DNA of 64,000 nt. Source: Nocardioides cavernae. Lineage in GTDB: Bacteria > Actinomycetota > Actinomycetes > Propionibacteriales > Nocardioidaceae. Location of the stretch: contig NZ_JACCBW010000002.1 in assembly GCF_013410035.1 (NCBI RefSeq), positions 496,001 through 560,000 of the forward strand, read 5' to 3'. Position numbers and translations under genes: made by a program. This document shows positions 15,105 through 52,315 of this stretch, piece after piece; the stretch's first letter is position 1, and each line of letters begins with the position of its first letter. The notes under the pieces were generated by a model, which ran no database searches, had not been told where the DNA came from, and saw only the letters and a program-made list of their open reading frames with translations.

Positions 15105-16661
15105 ATGCCGCGCACCGACATCTCCGCGTTGGTGGCCGAGGCTGCCGCGGACGTGCCCGACCGGCAGGCCCTCGTCGAGAGCGGCGGTCGCACCCTGACG
15201 TGGCTGCGGCTCGAGGACGAGGTGGCCCGCATCGCGACCGGCCTCGGCGCCCACGGCGTCCGCGCCGGGCAGCGGGTGATGCTCGTCCTCGGCAACCGCA
15301 TCGAGTTCGTCACCACCTACCTCGGCGTGCTCCGGGCGCAGGTCGTCGCCGTGCCGGTGAACCCGCGCTCGACGTCCGGGGAGCTCGCCCGGATGATCGC
15401 GGACTCCGGCACCCGCCTGGTGGTCACCGACGAGACCGCCGTCGAGGTCGTACGCGCGGCGCTGGCCGAGCTGACCGAGCTGGCCGACCTCGCCGCGCCG
15501 ACCGTCGTGGTCACGGGCACCGAGCCGGGGCCGGGCGAGGTCCCGCTCGACGCGCTGCGCGCCGAGGGCGTACGCCCAGTGCCGCCGCTGCCGGACGCCG
15601 AGAAGCTCGCCGCCCTCCTCTACACGAGCGGCACCTCGGGCCGCCCCCGCGCCGCGATGCTCAGCCACCGGGCGCTGCTGGCCAACATCGAGCAGGTCGC
15701 GGCGGTCGAGCCGCCGATGATGCACGGCGACGACGTGGTGCTCGGTGTGCTGCCGCTGTTCCACGTCTACGGCCTCAACGCCGTCCTGGGCGGCGTGCTC
15801 CGCCACCGTGCGCGACTGCTGCTGGTCGAGCACTACGACCCCCAGGCGGTCCTCGACCTCATCGACGACGAGGCGTGCAGCGTCGTGCCCATCGCGCCGC
15901 CCGTCTTCGCGCACTGGCTGCCCGACGAGCACCTGCGCGAACGGCTCGGCCCGGTCCGGCTCGTGCTGTCCGGCTCGGCGCCGCTCGAGCCCGAGGTCAT
16001 CGAGCGCTTCACCGAGATCACCGAGATCCCGGTCCACCAGGGCTACGGGCTGACCGAGGCGGCGCCCGTCGTCACGAGCACGCTGTGCAGCCACGAGCCG
16101 CGGGTCGGCTCCGTCGGTGCCGCGCTGCCGGGCATCGAGCTGCGCCTCGTCGACGAGACGTGGGGACAGCTCGAGGGGGAGGACCCCGGCCGGATCCAGG
16201 TGCGCGGGGACAACCTGTTCTCCGGCTACTGGCCCGACGGCGCGGACGGACCCGACGCCGACGGCTGGTACGCCACCGGAGACGTCGGCTTCCTCGACGC
16301 GAGCGGCGACCTCTTCCTCGTCGACCGGGTCAAGGAGCTCGTGATCGTCAGCGGCTTCAACGTCTACCCCACCGAGGTCGAGGACGTGATCCGGGAGGTC
16401 GACGGGGTCGCCGAGGCGGCCGTCATCGGCGTGCCCGACGCGGAGACCGGCGAGGCCGTGGTGGCCTACGTCGTCGCGTCGCGACCGGTCACCCACCTCG
16501 AGGAGGCGGTGCGGGCCCACGCGATCGTCCGGCTGGCGCGCTTCAAGCAGCCGTCGCGGATCGTGGTCGTCGACGAGCTGCCCCTGACCGTGACCGGCAA
16601 GGTGCAGAAGGGACGCCTGCGCGGCCTCGAGAGACGGCGTACGCAGGGGTTGCTCGAATGA
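15105..16661 (+). CDS. AMP-dependent acyl-CoA synthetase (long-chain fatty acid-CoA ligase type)
   Basis: 518 residues, complete ANL enzyme. A3 P-loop YTSGTSGRPRAAMLSH, A5 GYGLTEAAPVV, A7/A8 YATGDVGFLDASGDLFLVDR followed by VKELVIVSGFNVYPTEVE, and the A10 lysine in LTVTGKVQKGRLR. It activates a carboxylate with ATP and transfers it to CoA; the fatty-acyl class is inferred from overall pattern. ATG 15105 is preceded by GGAAGGAT, usable either as a ribosome site or as a leaderless -10. Divergent from HAD-IB and 7 nt before the glutaredoxin-like gene. Confidence 0.88.
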   Translation: MPRTDISALVAEAAADVPDRQALVESGGRTLTWLRLEDEVARIATGLGAHGVRAGQRVMLVLGNRIEFVTTYLGVLRAQVVAVPVNPRSTSGELARMIADSGTRLVVTDETAVEVVRAALAELTELADLAAPTVVVTGTEPGPGEVPLDALRAEGVRPVPPLPDAEKLAALLYTSGTSGRPRAAMLSHRALLANIEQVAAVEPPMMHGDDVVLGVLPLFHVYGLNAVLGGVLRHRARLLLVEHYDPQAVLDLIDDEACSVVPIAPPVFAHWLPDEHLRERLGPVRLVLSGSAPLEPEVIERFTEITEIPVHQGYGLTEAAPVVTSTLCSHEPRVGSVGAALPGIELRLVDETWGQLEGEDPGRIQVRGDNLFSGYWPDGADGPDADGWYATGDVGFLDASGDLFLVDRVKELVIVSGFNVYPTEVEDVIREVDGVAEAAVIGVPDAETGEAVVAYVVASRPVTHLEEAVRAHAIVRLARFKQPSRIVVVDELPLTVTGKVQKGRLRGLERRRTQGLLE

Positions 16662-46119: not shown

Positions 46120-47346
46120 TCAGCCGGCGCCCAGCGCGTCGCGGACCGGCACGAACTTGGCCTGCGACTCGGCCAGCTCGGCCTCCGGGTCGGAGCTGGC
46201 GACGATGCCGCAGCCGGCGAAGAGGCGTACGCCGCCCTCGATGAGCATGGCCGAGCGCAGGGCGATGCCCCACTCGCCGTCACCGGAGGCGTCCATCCAC
46301 CCGACGGGGCCGGCGTAGCGGTCGCGCGGCATCCCCTCGACCTCCGCGATGAGTCGCGTGGCGGCGGAGGTCGGCGTACCGCCCACGGCGGCCGACGGGT
46401 GGAGCGACTCGGCCAGCTGCAGCGACGTGGCCACGTCGTGCACGACGCCGTTGACGTCGGTGGCGAGGTGCATGACGTTGGGCAGGTGGAGGACGAACGG
46501 CGCCTCGGGGACGTTCATCGAGGAGCAGTGCGGCTCCAGCGCGTCCGCGACCGAGCGCACGGCGTACTCGTGCTCCTCGAGGTCCTTCGAGGACCGGGCG
46601 AGGGTCGCGGCGAGCGCGAGGTCGCGCTCGTCGTCGCCCGTGCGGCGGATCGTGCCGGCCAGCACGCGCGAGGTGACCAGGCCGCGCTCGCGGCGCACCA
46701 GCATCTCGGGGGTCGCGCCGAAGAGGCCGTCGACGTGGAAGGTCCAGCACATCTCGTACTGGGCGGCGAGCCGCTGCAGTGGCCACCGCACGTCGATCGG
46801 CTCGTCGGTGGTGGCGATGAGGTCGCGCGCGAGGACGACCTTCTCCAGCTCGCCCGACGAGATCCTGCCGACGGCCTCGGCGACGACCGACATCCACTCC
46901 TCGCCGTTGCGGGCGCCGTCGGAGAAGACCAGGCCGACCGGCGGGACCGGCGCCGGCTCCGGGGTCAGGGTGGGGGCCTCCACGGACACGGTCGTGACCC
47001 AGGTGCGGTCACCGCGCCGGCCGACGACGACCTGCGGGACCACGAGCACGGAGTCGCCGGGCTCGTCGGCGAACGCGAAGGCGCCGAAGCAGACCAGGCC
47101 GGTCCCGGGCTCGCCGACGTGGTCCTCGACCTCGGCGCGGGCGACCGTCTCCGACCACCACTTCACCGCGTCGCTGAACCGGGTGTGCCCCGACGTCTCG
47201 AGGCGGGCGGCGACGCCCCAGCCGACCAGTCCCTCGCCGCGACGCAGCCAGCTCACCGGCTCCTGCTGGGGCAGCAGGTCGAGGAGCGGGAGGTCTGCCA
47301 GGTCCACGGGGACCGTGCGCACGATCAGCGGCGCGGGGGTCGTCAC
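46120..47346 (-). CDS. menF: Isochorismate synthase
   Basis: 408 residues, chorismate-binding fold. VGRISSGELEKVVLARDLIA, LRRERGLVTSRVLAGTIRRT and SSKDLEEHEYAVRSV are followed by the core GGTPTSAATRLIAEVEGMPR, RYAGPVGWMDASGDGEWGIA and RLFAGCGIVASSDPEAEL. Converts chorismate to isochorismate for MenD. The general base Lys is in EKVVLARD. GTG 47346 stands 8 nt after TAGGCT. Menaquinone genes are present as A, C, D, E, F, G here; menB and menH are not in the window. Confidence 0.92.
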   Translation of the reverse strand: MTTPAPLIVRTVPVDLADLPLLDLLPQQEPVSWLRRGEGLVGWGVAARLETSGHTRFSDAVKWWSETVARAEVEDHVGEPGTGLVCFGAFAFADEPGDSVLVVPQVVVGRRGDRTWVTTVSVEAPTLTPEPAPVPPVGLVFSDGARNGEEWMSVVAEAVGRISSGELEKVVLARDLIATTDEPIDVRWPLQRLAAQYEMCWTFHVDGLFGATPEMLVRRERGLVTSRVLAGTIRRTGDDERDLALAATLARSSKDLEEHEYAVRSVADALEPHCSSMNVPEAPFVLHLPNVMHLATDVNGVVHDVATSLQLAESLHPSAAVGGTPTSAATRLIAEVEGMPRDRYAGPVGWMDASGDGEWGIALRSAMLIEGGVRLFAGCGIVASSDPEAELAESQAKFVPVRDALGAG

Positions 47347-47432: not shown

Positions 47433-47465
47433 GCGCAGGTACCCGATGCACGGAGGAGCCCGCAC

Positions 47466-48632
47466 GTGCCTGTCCACGACTCACCTCTCGCCCGGCTGGA
47501 GCGCCACGCGCGCAACCGCGCGCTCGAGGTCGCGGTGATGGAGCTGCGCGACCGGACGTGGTCGTCGCTCACGTGGAACGAGCTCTACCGACGCGTCATC
47601 GACGGCGCCGCCGGCATGATCGAGGCCGGGGTCGCCCCGGGGTCGGTCGTGGTGCTCCGCGTGCCCACCGGCATCCGGCAGGTCGAGCTCGAGCTCGCCA
47701 CCCGCGTCGCCGGGGCCGTGCCGCTGCTCCTGCCCGAGCACCTGGACCCGGCCGAGGTCGGCCGGCTGCTGGACGAGGTCGAGGTGCGCCTCGTGGTGGT
47801 CGACCACGAGAGCCGGCTGGCGCTGCTGCGCCACGCGGCGCTCGCCGACGCCCAGCTCTTCGAGTGCGACGACCGGTCGTGGGAGCGGCTGCGAGGGATG
47901 GGGCTCGACCGGCGCAAGCGCCAGCCCGACCTGCTCGGGTGGGTGGCGGACGCACGCGCCGGGTCCGCGACGGGCGCCGTGCTCGGCCTCCCGCGCGAGA
48001 AGAGCCAGGCGTGGCTCTTCCGGCCGGAGTCCTCCGGCACCCTGGCCGACCTGACCGCTGACGACGTCGTCGTGCTCACCGGCGAGGCCGCCGACCGGTT
48101 CACCACCGTCGTGCGCGACGCCCACCTGTCGTCGGGCTGCACACTCGCATGGGTGGAGGCGCCCGACCTGCTCGCGGCGGCCCTGTCACACGTGGCGCCG
48201 ACCCACGTCCTGCTCGACCACGTGGCCGCGCGGGCGCTGGAGGACCTCCTCGAGCACGCCACGCTCGACGGCAACCCGTGGCACGAGACCCCGCGCGAGG
48301 TGCTCGAGGCCATGTCGGCGCAGGTCGCCGGCGCGAGGCTGACGTCGAGGACGAAGAAGCTCGCCGCCGACGTCGCGGCGCTCGCGCCCTGGTGGGGCGG
48401 ACGGATCCGCGTCCTGTCGCTCGACGCCCGGGTCAACCGGACCATCAGCGGGCTCGCGACCACCCTGGGCTTCCGCATCGGGCGCATCGCCCACCACCCC
48501 GCGGTCCGGCTCGACCCGGCCGCCGAGCACGCGCTCCTGGCCGTGCCGCAGGCGCCCGCGGTGGAGGTGTCGTCGGACGTGCTGCCCAGGCGTGGCCGCG
48601 GCGAGCTCGACGCCGCCTTCTCGCTGGCCTGA
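47466..48632 (+). CDS. ANL (adenylation)-domain-like protein without catalytic motifs, paralog 1
   Basis: 388 residues. The N terminus reads like an acyl-CoA synthetase: RTWSSLTWNELYRRVIDGAA, GMIEAGVAPGSVVVLRVPTG, RVAGAVPLLLPEHL and VEVRLVVVDHESRL, and DDVVVLTGEAADRF then DAHLSSGCTLAWVEAPDLLA resembles the large-subdomain middle. But there is no TSGTTGxPKG P-loop, no GYGxTE motif, no GD/GR hinge and no C-terminal Lys domain; the protein stops where a catalytic core would continue. A pseudoenzyme or binding protein is inferred. Start GTG 47466 with a clear GGAGGAG site. Related to the next gene. Confidence 0.7.
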   Translation: MPVHDSPLARLERHARNRALEVAVMELRDRTWSSLTWNELYRRVIDGAAGMIEAGVAPGSVVVLRVPTGIRQVELELATRVAGAVPLLLPEHLDPAEVGRLLDEVEVRLVVVDHESRLALLRHAALADAQLFECDDRSWERLRGMGLDRRKRQPDLLGWVADARAGSATGAVLGLPREKSQAWLFRPESSGTLADLTADDVVVLTGEAADRFTTVVRDAHLSSGCTLAWVEAPDLLAAALSHVAPTHVLLDHVAARALEDLLEHATLDGNPWHETPREVLEAMSAQVAGARLTSRTKKLAADVAALAPWWGGRIRVLSLDARVNRTISGLATTLGFRIGRIAHHPAVRLDPAAEHALLAVPQAPAVEVSSDVLPRRGRGELDAAFSLA

Positions 48633-48668
48633 CGCGCACCGGGTCCCTCCGCCGCGTCGTCTCAGCCC

Positions 48669-48686
48669 GTGGACACCACGTCCACG
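48669..48686. promoter_or_regulatory. Inverted repeat between the paired adenylation-like genes
   Basis: CGTGGAC-N5-GTCCACG (48668-48686 with the flanking pair) is a perfect 7-bp palindrome in the 165-nt gap; a second, shorter one (CGAGT-N5-ACTCG) lies at 48758-48772. Either may be an operator or a weak terminator. Confidence 0.4.
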
Positions 48687-48797
48687 AGCCTCGTACAGCG
48701 ACGCAACAGTCAGGTAAAACCCCCTCGCGCCCCACCCGCCCCCGGCACAGTCGTGACCGAGTCATTCACTCGTCAACGACCCTGGGGGATCCGTCCG

Positions 48798-50009
48798 ATG
48801 CCACTCGTGCCGCAGGCACGCGCGTCCGCGCTGCCGTCCGGTCTGGCGCCCGAGCTGCCGCCGTCTCCGTGGCGGCTCCTGCGCGGGCTGGCCGAGTCGC
48901 GTCCCCACGACGTCGCGTACGTCGTCGGGCAGGACGCCCGCACGTGGGCGGAGGTCGCCCGGACGGTCGAGCGGGCTGCCGCCGGCCTGGTGCGCAGCGG
49001 GCTGCGCGCCGACCAGGTCGTGGTGTCGCTGCTCCCGTCGGCCCACCCCCGGCCCGAGCTGGAGACGGCCCTGCGGGCGATCGGCGCCGTCGTGGTGCAC
49101 CTGGCCCCGGGCCTGACGGGTGAGGCCCTGTCCGAGGCCCTGGCCGACGTGGACGTGCGCCTGGTGCTCACGCCCGACGAGGCCGAGCTCGACCGGCTCG
49201 CCGGCCTCACGTTCCGCTCCGCCGAGATGTTCGCCGTCGACGCCGGGTGGGACCGCCTCCTGGCCCTCGGTGAGGAGCGGCTCCGGATGGACCCCGACGC
49301 CGTGTCGCGCGCCGACCGCGGCGTGGAGCCGGACGGCACGTCGGCGCGCGTCCTGGCCGCGGACGCGTCCGTCGGCCGCGTCCCGCACCACGTGCGCCCC
49401 GACCTGCCCGCCACGGAGGCCACCGTGGTCGTCGGCGACCACGGCGACCCGCTGGTCCGCGCGACCCTGGACGCCCACCTGACGTCCGGGGGCACGCTCG
49501 TGCACCTGCCCACGCCCGACGGTCTCGCCGGCGTGCTCGCGGCCGTACGCCCCGCATGCCTCGTGCTCGCCCACGGCCCGGCGGCCCAGCTCCCCGGGCT
49601 GGCCCCGAGCGTGCCCGCCGCCCGTCGGCTGCGTCCGGGACGACCGCGCACCAACGATGTCCTCCGGTCGTGGTCGGGCGGTCGCCTCGCCACCGTCGTG
49701 GTGGACCGGCCCGCTCCCGGCCTGCGGGACCTGCTCGGCGGCCTCGAGGTGTCGGTGGAGCTGCTGCCCGTAGAGCTCCTGCCCGCCGACCTGCCCGTCC
49801 CGCCACCCGTGGTCCTCGGCGACGTCGCCGACCTGCCCCGCCGGTCGCGTCGCGACCCGAGCCGCGACTTCCTGCTCGACAACGACCGGGCGCCGGCCCC
49901 GGTCGCACCCGACGAGTCGGCCTTCGTGCTGCCGTCCCTCCCACTCTTCGGCGGTGAGTCGTTCCTCGACAAGCTGCTGATCGCCCAGGCCACCCAGGCC
50001 GGGGCGTGA
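48798..50009 (+). CDS. ANL (adenylation)-domain-like protein without catalytic motifs, paralog 2
   Basis: 403 residues. SPWRLLRGLAESRPHDVAYV, DARTWAEVARTVERAAAGLV and GLRADQVVVSLLPSAHPRPE follow the acyl-CoA-synthetase N-terminal pattern, and DAHLTSGGTLVHLPTPDGLA parallels DAHLSSGCTLAWVEAPDLLA in the preceding protein, so the two are paralogs. Again no P-loop, no YGxTE, no A10 Lys. The C terminus has RRDPSRDFLLDN and an FGGESFLDKLLIAQA end. ATG 48798 has GGGGGA upstream; GTG 48753 is an alternative. Followed after 97 nt by the roadblock-like gene. Confidence 0.68.
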   Translation: MPLVPQARASALPSGLAPELPPSPWRLLRGLAESRPHDVAYVVGQDARTWAEVARTVERAAAGLVRSGLRADQVVVSLLPSAHPRPELETALRAIGAVVVHLAPGLTGEALSEALADVDVRLVLTPDEAELDRLAGLTFRSAEMFAVDAGWDRLLALGEERLRMDPDAVSRADRGVEPDGTSARVLAADASVGRVPHHVRPDLPATEATVVVGDHGDPLVRATLDAHLTSGGTLVHLPTPDGLAGVLAAVRPACLVLAHGPAAQLPGLAPSVPAARRLRPGRPRTNDVLRSWSGGRLATVVVDRPAPGLRDLLGGLEVSVELLPVELLPADLPVPPPVVLGDVADLPRRSRRDPSRDFLLDNDRAPAPVAPDESAFVLPSLPLFGGESFLDKLLIAQATQAGA

Positions 50010-50106
50010 CAACCGGGCCAGCGCCCACCCACCAGCCTCCGGGAATCCTCCCGGTCGCCACCGCGTCACCTCCAGTGGAGGCGACCGAGCCGCAAAGGAA
50101 CCAGAC

Positions 50107-50472
50107 ATGACCAACGTGGACGTGATCCTCAAGGACGCCGTCAACATCGACGGGGCCGTCGCCGCCCTGCTCGTGGACTACCAGTCGGGCATGGCCCTCG
50201 GCCAGGCCGGTGACGCCACCGTCCTCAACCTCGACGTCGCGGCCGCCGGCAACACCGACGTCGTCCGCGCCAAGATGCGCACGATGGAGAGCCTCGGCCT
50301 CAACGACAAGATCGAGGACATCCTCATCACCCTGGGCTCGGCCTACCACCTGATCAACCTGCCCGAGGACCACCCGGGCCTGTTCATCTACCTGGTGCTC
50401 GACAAGAGCCGCGCCAACCTGGCGATGGCCCGCCACAAGCTGGCCTCGCTCGCCAAGCAGCTCGAGATCTGA
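50107..50472 (+). CDS. Roadblock/LC7-like protein
   Basis: 121 residues: TNVDVILKDAVNIDGAVAAL, LVDYQSGMALGQAGDATVLN, LDVAAAGNTDVVRAKMRTM, then IEDILITLGSAYHLINLPED and GLFIYLVLDKSRANLAMARH. The alpha-beta pattern, size and the LVLDxxxANLAMAR end are those of roadblock/LC7 proteins, which scaffold small GTPases in other bacteria. No GTPase is adjacent; the neighbours are the two adenylation-like proteins. ATG 50107 follows AAAGGA at 50096-50101. A hairpin lies in its leader (CCGGG/CCCGG). Confidence 0.7.
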   Translation: MTNVDVILKDAVNIDGAVAALLVDYQSGMALGQAGDATVLNLDVAAAGNTDVVRAKMRTMESLGLNDKIEDILITLGSAYHLINLPEDHPGLFIYLVLDKSRANLAMARHKLASLAKQLEI

Positions 50473-50542: not shown

Positions 50543-51529
50543 TCACGAGCGGTAGACGATGACCTTGTCGCCGAGACGGACCTGGTCGAAGAGCCAGGCG
50601 ACGGCGTCGCGGTCGCGGACGTTGACGCACCCGTGCGAGGCCCCGGCATAGCCGTTGGCCGCGAAGTCGGGGGAGTAGTGCACGGCCTGCCCGCCGGAGA
50701 AGAACATCGCGAAGGGCATCGGGGTGTCGTAGAGGCTCGAGACGTGGTCGCGCGACTTGCGGAACACGGCGAAGGCGCCCTCGCGGGTCGGCAGCTCGTC
50801 CGAGCCGAACCGCACCTCGACGGTCCTGCGGACCACGCCGTCGACGACCCACCGCAGGGAGCGCGACGTCTTGTCGACGCACATCGCCCGACCGGTGGTG
50901 CAGCGCGGGTCGAGCCGCGGCCCGGTCGCCACGATGTTGAACAGCTCGGCCTTCGTGGGCTGCCGGGTCACGTCCTTGAGGCGGGTGAGGGTACGGCGGT
51001 CGACCTGCCCGGTGACCGGGATCCTGCGCCTGGCCTGGAACCGCTCCACCGCCGTCACCGTGGTGCGGTCGAAGCGGCCGGTGACCTTCGCGTCGTACCA
51101 CCGCACCTGCTTGAGCCGGGCCTGCACCTGGCGTACCCACATCCCGCGGTCGCCGCGCTGCAGCAGCGGCCGACCGGGCGTGTAGACGTTGTGCAACGCC
51201 TCCGAGGTGGGCTCGGTCGTGAGGCTGACCAGCTTGAGCCAGGTGCGCTCGTCGACGACGCCGCCCGTGTCCCAGCCGCGTCGCCGCTGGAAGGTCGTGA
51301 CGCCCGCGCGGGTCTCCTCGTCGTAGCGGTTGGTGACGATCTCGGAGTGGAGCCCGAGCTGGTGCAGGCGGCTCTGCAGCTCGCGCACCCGCCAGCCCGT
51401 GTCGCCGGGGTGGATGGGTGAGAACCCGGCACGGTGCGTCGCCCCGGTCGCGGCGGCGCCGTCCACGACGGCCAGGACGGTGGACGAGCAGAGCAGGACG
51501 AGCAGGAGTGCGGTGATGCGGCGTGACAT
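50543..51529 (-). CDS. Secreted L,D-transpeptidase with two peptidoglycan-binding domains
   Basis: 328 residues. Signal peptide RRITALLLVLLCSSTVLAVV, then two PG_binding_1 repeats (GDTGWRVRELQSRLHQLGL with RAGVTTFQRRRGWD; GDRGMWVRQVQARLKQVRWY with VTAVERFQARRRI), then the YkuD catalytic domain ending HYSPDFAANGYAGASHGCVN with the catalytic Cys at about residue 301. It should form 3-3 peptidoglycan cross-links in the wall. ATG 51529 has GGGGGATCC upstream. Complete. Confidence 0.92.
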   Translation of the reverse strand: MSRRITALLLVLLCSSTVLAVVDGAAATGATHRAGFSPIHPGDTGWRVRELQSRLHQLGLHSEIVTNRYDEETRAGVTTFQRRRGWDTGGVVDERTWLKLVSLTTEPTSEALHNVYTPGRPLLQRGDRGMWVRQVQARLKQVRWYDAKVTGRFDRTTVTAVERFQARRRIPVTGQVDRRTLTRLKDVTRQPTKAELFNIVATGPRLDPRCTTGRAMCVDKTSRSLRWVVDGVVRRTVEVRFGSDELPTREGAFAVFRKSRDHVSSLYDTPMPFAMFFSGGQAVHYSPDFAANGYAGASHGCVNVRDRDAVAWLFDQVRLGDKVIVYRS

Positions 51530-51625: not shown

Positions 51626-52315
51626 GTGGCCCGCGCTGACCTGGACAAGCAACCCTCCGACGTACGTCGCATGTTCGACACCGTGGCCAGGCGCTACGAC
51701 CTCACCAACGACCTCATGACCGCCGGCATCCAGCGCAGCTGGCGGCGCTCGATGGTCGAGGCCGTCGCTCCCCGCCCCGGCGACCTCGTGCTCGACCTCG
51801 CCGCCGGCACCGGCTGCTCGAGCGAGCCGTTCTCCGACCGCGGGGCCACCGCCGTGCCGTGCGACTTCTCCGTCGGCATGCTCCGGCAGGGCAAGAAGGA
51901 CCGGCCGGCCCTGCCGTTCGTGGCCGGCGACGGCACCCGGCTGCCGTTCCTCGACGACACCTTCGACGCGGTCACGATCTCCTACGGCCTGCGCAACTTC
52001 GTCGACCCGGTCGCGGGGCTCAGGGAGATGCTCCGCGTCACGCGCCCCGGGGGCCGCCTGGTGGTCTGCGAGTTCAGCCGTCCGACCAACGGCGCCCTGC
52101 GCACGGTCTACCTCGACGGCTTCATGCGCGCCCTCCCGGCCATCGCGTCGGTGACCGCCAGCGCCGCCGACGCCTACGTCTACCTCGCCGAGTCGATCCG
52201 CGCGTGGCCCGACCAGGAGGGCCTCGCGGCCATGCTCATCGACGCCGGCTGGCGCGAGCCCGAGTGGCGCAACCTCACCGGCGGCATCGTCGCCCTGCAC
52301 CGCGCCACCGCCTGA
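51626..52315 (+). CDS. menG: Demethylmenaquinone methyltransferase
   Basis: 229 residues. SAM-dependent UbiE/Men[21 protein letters not shown], the SAM motif [56 protein letters not shown] and the C-terminal [20 protein letters not shown]. It methylates the MenA product to menaquinone, the last step of the pathway. The start at GTG 51626 ([16 protein letters not shown]) is chosen over 51602 because of the -10 spacing and family length. Confidence 0.93.

Follow-up and report, generated by a model that had tools for sequence, protein, structure and literature searches.

An accessory gene pair for a putative ANL-fold pseudo-enzyme and a predicted roadblock protein beside a lineage-fixed paralog in Nocardioides

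Why should a bacterium keep two genes for proteins that resemble acyl-CoA synthetases without their catalytic motifs next to a gene for a roadblock-like protein, and do the three belong together? The question is raised by three consecutive forward-strand genes of Nocardioides cavernae, which lie in a stretch of 64,000 nucleotides (the window): P1 (47466–48632; 388 amino acids), P2 (48798–50009; 403 amino acids) and P3 (50107–50472; 121 amino acids). An earlier interpretation of the bare DNA (the sequence-only reading) took the trio for one system, possibly linked to the flanking menaquinone or cell-wall genes. Our analysis describes the locus as a real, conserved and unusual pair, P2 and P3, with a plausible docking tail on P2, next to a pseudo-enzyme gene, P1, that is fixed in its lineage.

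P1 was present in 33 of 215 genomes of the genus, N. cavernae included (E-value (E) 1e-12; eight candidates scored per genome), the other 32 copies being 57–80% identical to it, and all 33 genes lie between menF and menG. At this site, P2 and P3 both follow P1 in 11 genomes and are both absent in 22; neither occurs alone in any, and the order P1-P2-P3 holds in all 11 genomes with the three genes. Because P1 stands without P2 and P3 in those 22 genomes, only P2 and P3 behave as a unit, and the distribution shows P1 to be a fixed lineage gene that occurs without them; the trio as a single system is not borne out. At the 21 of 22 pair-less sites with a transpeptidase gene, the P1 match ends 14–100 bases before that gene, which was not found at the P1 site in two of the 33 genomes (L112 and L141).

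Close copies of P3 (78–100% identity) occur in 12 genomes of the genus, and all 12 adjoin a P2-like gene. In G308 and G309 the sole P3 relatives are divergent (40–43% identity), and G154 has a divergent second copy; none of these three adjoins a P2-like gene. The twelfth genome with a close P3 copy, G096, appeared as the 34th match in the P1 search; its gene is P2-like and lies with P3 on another contig than menF, and P1 is absent. The P2-like protein of G096 keeps the motif GESFLDRVL, even though its match to P1 or P2 extends to no more than roughly a third of its residues. In G245, P1 occupies the site, a P2 gene lies elsewhere, and the P3 search gave no match. In a FastTree phylogeny of menF, menG and nuoA-D, the 11 genomes with P2 and P3 fell into six groups, and within two sister pairs, L111/L126 (support 0.997) and L112/L124 (0.956), one genome has the two genes and the other lacks them. 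P2 and P3 were therefore probably gained or lost jointly several times, the exact number being blurred by low support at several backbone nodes.

The rival that P1, P2 and P3 form one acyl- or nucleotide-sensing scaffold tied to menaquinone or cell-wall synthesis draws on the invariant gene order and on the position of P1 between menF and menG. We regard it as improbable given the 22 genomes with P1 alone and G096, where the P2-like gene and P3 stand without P1 and away from menF. The proposed metabolic link is positional only and finds no support here: the three genes are divergent from the menF-like gene for a chorismate-binding enzyme (46120–47346, minus strand; Pfam Chorismate_bind, E 1.7e-69), a name read from gene context, and convergent with the L,D-transpeptidase gene (50543–51529, minus strand; Pfam YkuD and PG_binding_1). 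Beyond the latter lie a menG/ubiE-like methyltransferase gene (51626–52315, plus strand; Pfam Ubie_methyltran, E 5.8e-57) and nuoA-nuoD, the nuo names being read from sequence. Gene order from menD to nuoD is shared by these genomes, so adjacency carries little weight. P1–P3 were absent between menF and menG in all 12 P1-less genomes examined (11 of the genus, one of another genus of the family), and all 12 keep menF within about 2.5 kb of menG. In the wider class, with five candidates scored for each genome, relatives of P1 or P2 above 450 bits turned up in four of 345 genomes, every one belonging to this genus; the other listed class matches reached at most 88.5 bits and lay in frames of at least 590 residues, the length of a whole synthetase.

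Are these genes simply decaying? The reading frame of P1 is open in 33 of 33 genomes with no internal stops, and the ratio of nonsynonymous to synonymous substitution rates (dN/dS) against the window copy was 0.21–0.50 in 32 comparisons, 31 of them below 0.40; P1 is under purifying selection. P3 is open in all 12 close copies, with dN/dS values of 0.16–0.34 for ten congeners that have the gene at the site, and of 0.77 in G096. P2 is open in 10 of 11 copies at the site, with dN/dS values of 0.44–0.65 in ten comparisons. The frameshifted P2 of G296, the G096 P2-like protein and the divergent P3 relatives were left out of the dN/dS estimates, and G201, a near-duplicate of G200, out of the identity matrix. 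That P1 and P2 are functionless, decaying remnants of acyl-CoA synthetase genes would fit the loss of catalytic motifs and a P2 that evolves fast and is frameshifted in one of 11 genomes; the open frames, the dN/dS values of P1 and the strongly conserved P2 tail described below make this highly improbable. A pseudogene origin, which had been named as the finding that would undo the sequence-only reading, is accordingly rejected for P1 and P3 and unlikely for P2.

P1 and P2 correspond to the N-terminal part of an adenylate-forming (ANL) enzyme. Both scored above the Pfam AMP-binding cut-off (E 6.5e-14 and 6.4e-14), at model positions 2–110 and 5–129 of 384, covering about the first third only, and no C-terminal family was listed for either up to E 1 in the Pfam scan. 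They have a DAHL(S/T)SG(C/G)TL block in common and are 30–34% identical to each other. In an hhalign comparison of 12 P1/P2 sequences with five acyl-CoA synthetases, the match had 97.3% probability (E 2.3e-11; P1 residues 9–258), with the P-loop stretch of the synthetases opposite a shortened P1 segment. When P1 was aligned with complete synthetases in MAFFT, the central part came out poorly, and these alignments were kept out of the structure prediction. An AlphaFold2 (AF2) model of P1 reached a mean predicted local distance difference test score (pLDDT) of 66.7 and a predicted template-modelling score (pTM) of 0.71, with 107 of 388 residues below a pLDDT of 50. Its Foldseek match to FadD5 of M. 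tuberculosis had an E of 8.7e-13 at a template-modelling (TM) score of only about 0.5, and VIA-align superposed it on FadD1 of A. fulgidus with Z 25.4 over 296 residues at 3.2 Å. The 50 entries listed scored Z 24.0–25.4 and are nearly all ANL enzymes by title; P1 aligns to residues 13–351 of 3g7s_A. The homology of P1 to ANL enzymes was thus assigned by profile and fold; for P2 it rests on the Pfam match and on its alignment with P1. The NCBIfam matches considered were the best 25 of 32 families for P1 and the best 25 of 33 for P2.

Patterns for the P-loop (A3) and for an A8-type motif matched none of 33 P1 and none of 10 P2 sequences, and both matched a control acyl-CoA synthetase from the window. 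A loose A5 pattern matched one of 33 P1 sequences, none of the 10 P2 sequences and the control. An A7 pattern (6 of 33 P1, 3 of 10 P2) was discarded after missing the control. On these sequence comparisons, and for P1 also on the predicted fold, both proteins are shown to be pseudo-enzymes, in which the ANL N-terminal domain with its acyl-/adenylate-pocket is kept and the ATP-gripping loop and C-terminal catalytic domain are lost. Here the sequence-only reading was right: these are two intact ANL-fold paralogs without catalytic motifs. Going by the alignment to ANL N-domains, which spans most of P1, P1 or P2 could in principle keep a non-canonical adenylate handling, or act only when complexed with a complete ANL enzyme, for example the synthetase encoded at 15105–16661. 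With the P-loop and A8-type patterns missing from all copies tested and no C-terminal domain, we consider this very unlikely.

Some other likenesses of these proteins were set aside. Chain E1 of PDB entry 8iuf, a respiratory supercomplex of Euglena, has the same fold as the P1 model (Z 25.0); this and the position of P1 near nuo genes are probably a coincidence. A phage or defence origin was discarded, as neither P1, P2, P3 nor one P3 relative had a PHROGs match, and a PADLOC match to Cas56g in P2 (18 residues, E 0.0019) was taken as chance.

What distinguishes P2 is its C-terminus. P2 is shown to be of the same stock as P1, a fast-evolving paralog with a conserved C-terminal tail that P1 is without. 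Among nine P2 sequences, residues 372–400 (…GGESFLDKLL…) had a mean pairwise identity of 82%, compared with 52% for residues 1–345, and a sliding-window scan picked them out as the most conserved part of P2. The median dN was 0.11 in the tail and 0.46 in the body, and the median dS 0.43 and 0.71, respectively. The C-terminus of P1 falls where the P2 tail would start, and ESFLD is absent from the P1 of all 32 relatives as well as from the window P1. The P2 of G245, the genome without a P3 match, has no tail. The last residues of P2, GGESFLDKLLIAQATQAGA (residues 385–403; 49950–50006, plus strand), are the proposed docking helix for P3.

P3 itself matched no Pfam or NCBIfam family, with no Robl_LC7 hit up to E 10, and PDB sequence searches with P3, as single sequence or profile, returned no roadblock protein; only fold comparison found one. 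The AF2 model of P3, built from 38 sequences, had a pLDDT of 93.1 and a pTM of 0.87. Its best Foldseek matches in the PDB were 3kye, MglB and LAMTOR chains (query TM 0.60–0.83 in the 50 listed, E from 7e-7). Its elements follow the order H-E-E-H-E-E-E-H, which corresponds to the alpha-beta-beta-alpha-beta-beta-beta-alpha order that marks the roadblock/LC7 family. P3 is therefore predicted with high confidence to be a roadblock-fold protein, in agreement with its first classification.

Across 38 members of the P3 family, Pfam Robl_LC7 matched none at E 0.1, LAMTOR5 gave a weak match in nine (best E 0.004), and NCBIfam gave scattered weak matches, none to a roadblock family. A more distant Streptomyces copy had a Robl_LC7 match below the cut-off (20.3 of 23 bits). 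The sole Robl_LC7 match in the N. cavernae genome is a gene other than P3. Relatives of P3 were found in 106 of 394 genomes of the class (E 0.001), 18 of 324 genomes of the phylum (E 1e-12), 28 plasmid records, among them Deinococcus, Comamonas, Acinetobacter and Hymenobacter, and five contigs of a viral collection. P3 is a member of a widespread, unnamed roadblock-like family. By title, the open PubMed Central literature held no related paper on roadblock proteins in Nocardioides, nor on roadblock proteins together with adenylation enzymes, acyl-CoA synthetases or pseudoenzymes.

We surveyed the neighbours of P3 relatives at named loci, which are the best 80 of 572, taking five called genes as the neighbourhood. 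Two types of gene, c1 and c2, recur (c2 in 64 loci, c1 in 69, both in 62); one c1 example has a clear Robl_LC7 match, and one c2 example a DUF4388 match just under the cut-off. A P1/P2-like gene stands near the P3 relative in one locus, that of N. currus. A full-length acyl-CoA synthetase occurs in the fetched stretch of four loci (L149, L152, L161 and L218), which we take as chance. A GTPase gene adjoins a P3 relative in G011 and G900 and lies near one in Comamonas, and BLAST labels a further one near the relative in L178. A regular-expression scan of the 80 loci found no GTPase and missed that of L178, so it under-counts; few of the sampled loci have a GTPase gene beside the P3 relative.

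Individual loci show other arrangements. On plasmid pSU2 of Agarilytica rhodophyticola (L298:4001-6072), a P3 relative, a BLUF photoreceptor, and GTPase-like and roadblock/LC7 proteins are encoded in one cluster; the BLUF gene lies between those for the P3 relative and the GTPase-like protein, which passes Pfam ATP_bind_1. An IMG/VR contig encodes a 295-residue fusion (L312:5476-6363) of DUF4388 (residues 15–116) with a P3-type roadblock. On a plasmid of Deinococcus sp. QL22 (L301:5001-5360), a P3 relative interrupted by stops lies downstream of a DUF4388 protein. No paper linking DUF4388 to roadblock proteins was found in the open PubMed Central literature.

A broader idea is that P3-type proteins form a general, largely unannotated roadblock hub across phyla, to which unrelated input proteins attach through a short helix at their C-terminus; the inputs would be a dead ANL domain here, a DUF4388/winged-helix-like protein in Streptomyces and the BLUF photoreceptor in Agarilytica. 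The Streptomyces-type c2 proteins (L143 and 63 similar loci, upstream of P3) end in a helix-like tail, DPDxALLRRLRDALEAL, that is highly conserved and follows a variable segment. A hydrophobic-x-basic tail pattern occurs in 63 of 64 c2 proteins, in P2 and in the BLUF, Comamonas and Acinetobacter partners, against a background of 26 of 364 clusters (7.1%), and the DUF4388–P3 fusion exists. The pattern was drawn from these same five partner types, however, the DUF4388 protein beside the broken P3 copy in Deinococcus lacks it, and a test fixed in advance found it in none of 18 neighbours at new loci. We regard the hub, together with this list of inputs, as doubtful.

For P2 and P3 themselves, we favour, at about an even chance, that P2 would dock on a P3 dimer through its C-terminal helix, by analogy with RomR on MglC, and act as a non-catalytic sensor. 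In the accessible part of the RomR study, RomR has a C-terminal helix, preceded by a disordered region, that binds to the roadblock protein MglC with a dissociation constant (KD) of 2.6 nM and is modelled at the MglC dimer interface (PMC12719032). Applied to our locus, P3 would probably form a dimer, as roadblock proteins do, the helix of P2 would dock onto it, and what P3 scaffolds would change as the P2 domain binds or releases a ligand. The partner downstream of P3 might, speculatively, be a small GTPase encoded elsewhere, the conservon GTPase being one candidate. The joint presence and absence of P2 and P3 at the P1 site and the constraint on the tail speak for docking.

Several observations weigh against it. 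According to the same part of that study, the RomR helix binds MglC and not the roadblock protein MglB (PMC12719032), so docking is not a general roadblock property. The fast evolution of the P2 body is compatible with a loose sensor and also with relaxed constraint, and the loss of the tail along with P3 is a single example, G245. In G296 (L113:5693-6827), P2 is frameshifted in a draft assembly, and the tail survives, conserved, in another frame. The AF2 model of P1 was built from three sequences and is poor at residues 166–192 and after about residue 280. Outside the genus, most P3 relatives have no P2-like neighbour (79 of 80 named loci): a roadblock gene conserved without the paralogs, which the sequence-only reading had held would speak against it, is thus what we found beyond the lineage, and not among the 12 close copies within the genus. 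Finally, in the test of the wider idea, with the criterion fixed beforehand, the tail pattern was found in none of 18 neighbours at 32 new loci, where about 1.3 were expected by chance. Judged by eye, most of these 18 seem to be unrelated genes that share a same-strand run with the P3 relative; the test therefore says little about true partners, and it still lends no support.

P3 might alternatively act alone as an orphan roadblock, for instance on the conservon GTPase, with P2 merely co-travelling in a two-gene segment. Among 32 P3-family loci from other actinobacterial genomes, as called by a crude gene finder that missed at least one P3-like frame (L325), 19 had neither a further roadblock gene nor a GTPase or c2-like gene in the same-strand run. 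Three IMG/VR contigs of low G+C content (L309–L311; 0.37–0.41) encode P3 relatives 51–56% identical to the query, and no roadblock, GTPase or c2-like neighbour was seen by eye. Each of 15 genus genomes searched has one gene weakly related to the G011 GTPase, and in N. cavernae this gene is the conservon GTPase. Orphan roadblock genes are not unusual either, given that 328 of 749 MglB homologs are not coupled to MglA in the accessible part of a published survey (PMC4316618). Hitch-hiking would leave unexplained both the strong constraint on the P2 tail and its absence in the P3-less G245, and we hold this alternative to be possible, if somewhat unlikely.

The layout of the locus adds some detail. 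P1 starts with GTG and P2 and P3 with ATG; the gaps are 165 bases between P1 and P2 and 97 bases between P2 and P3. Ribosome-binding-like sites are clear for P1 (GGAGG at 47452–47456) and P3 (AAAGGA at 50094–50099) and weaker for P2. A longer P2 frame of 446 amino acids is available from 48669. In G117, G166 and G190, the match to this frame holds a stop and the part matching the 403-residue protein is stop-free, which places the stop upstream of the shorter P2. By eye, no GTPase gene was seen among the genes called around the locus, as originally noted, and no kinase or CvnC gene was seen there. A conservon lies on another contig of the N. cavernae genome (L259), with genes for a kinase-type ATPase, Robl_LC7, DUF742 and an ATP_bind_1 GTPase.

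Among bacterial roadblock genes, many stand apart from any cognate GTPase gene, going by the same portion of the survey (PMC4316618). Against this background, P2, whose dead ANL domain bears a conserved tail and whose gene co-occurs with a roadblock gene, offers a concrete candidate for both partner and interface. The locus also draws attention to the P3 family, which is widespread and among whose sampled members no match to a Pfam or NCBIfam roadblock model exceeded the cut-off. If docking is true, P2 would be a further example of a metabolic-enzyme fold turned to sensing; if it fails, what is left is a lineage-specific pseudo-enzyme beside an unrelated orphan roadblock.

Compared with known systems, P1 and P2 resemble the N-terminal domain of the ANL superfamily, to which acyl-CoA synthetases, NRPS adenylation domains and luciferases belong, in their Pfam AMP-binding match, in the profile match and, for P1, in fold; they differ by the missing P-loop, A8-type motif and C-terminal domain and by their restriction to one lineage. 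TIGR03089, which we take to be an ANL-like actinobacterial family (the N. cavernae copy was judged so by eye), is likewise a small, truncated ANL-like protein of 235 amino acids. It was found in 20 of 20 genomes searched, including N. cavernae at C2:1111314-1111991 (L258). Membership of P1 and P2 in it was rejected, as this is a separate locus and the model gave no match at the P1/P2 locus at E 0.001; no paper on TIGR03089 was found in the open PubMed Central literature.

P3 shares its predicted fold with the roadblock/LC7 proteins MglB, MglC, CvnB and LAMTOR, as the matches to 3kye, MglB and LAMTOR chains indicate, whereas its family has no Robl_LC7 match and often no GTPase alongside. Conservons (CvnA-D) are described, in the available part of the source, as actinobacterial G protein systems with a roadblock protein in a signalling context (PMC13343842). 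MglA/MglB-type systems and conservons have their cognate small GTPase nearby; at the P3 locus none was seen, and the conservon GTPase lies on the other contig. The closest experimental parallel found for P2 and P3 is RomR-MglC of Myxococcus xanthus. There, as far as the accessible part of its description goes, a folded domain and a disordered region are combined with a C-terminal helix that binds a roadblock dimer, the pattern that we propose for P2 and P3; the binding of RomR to MglC is experimental, whereas the docking of P2 on P3 is suggested indirectly by the conservation of its tail.

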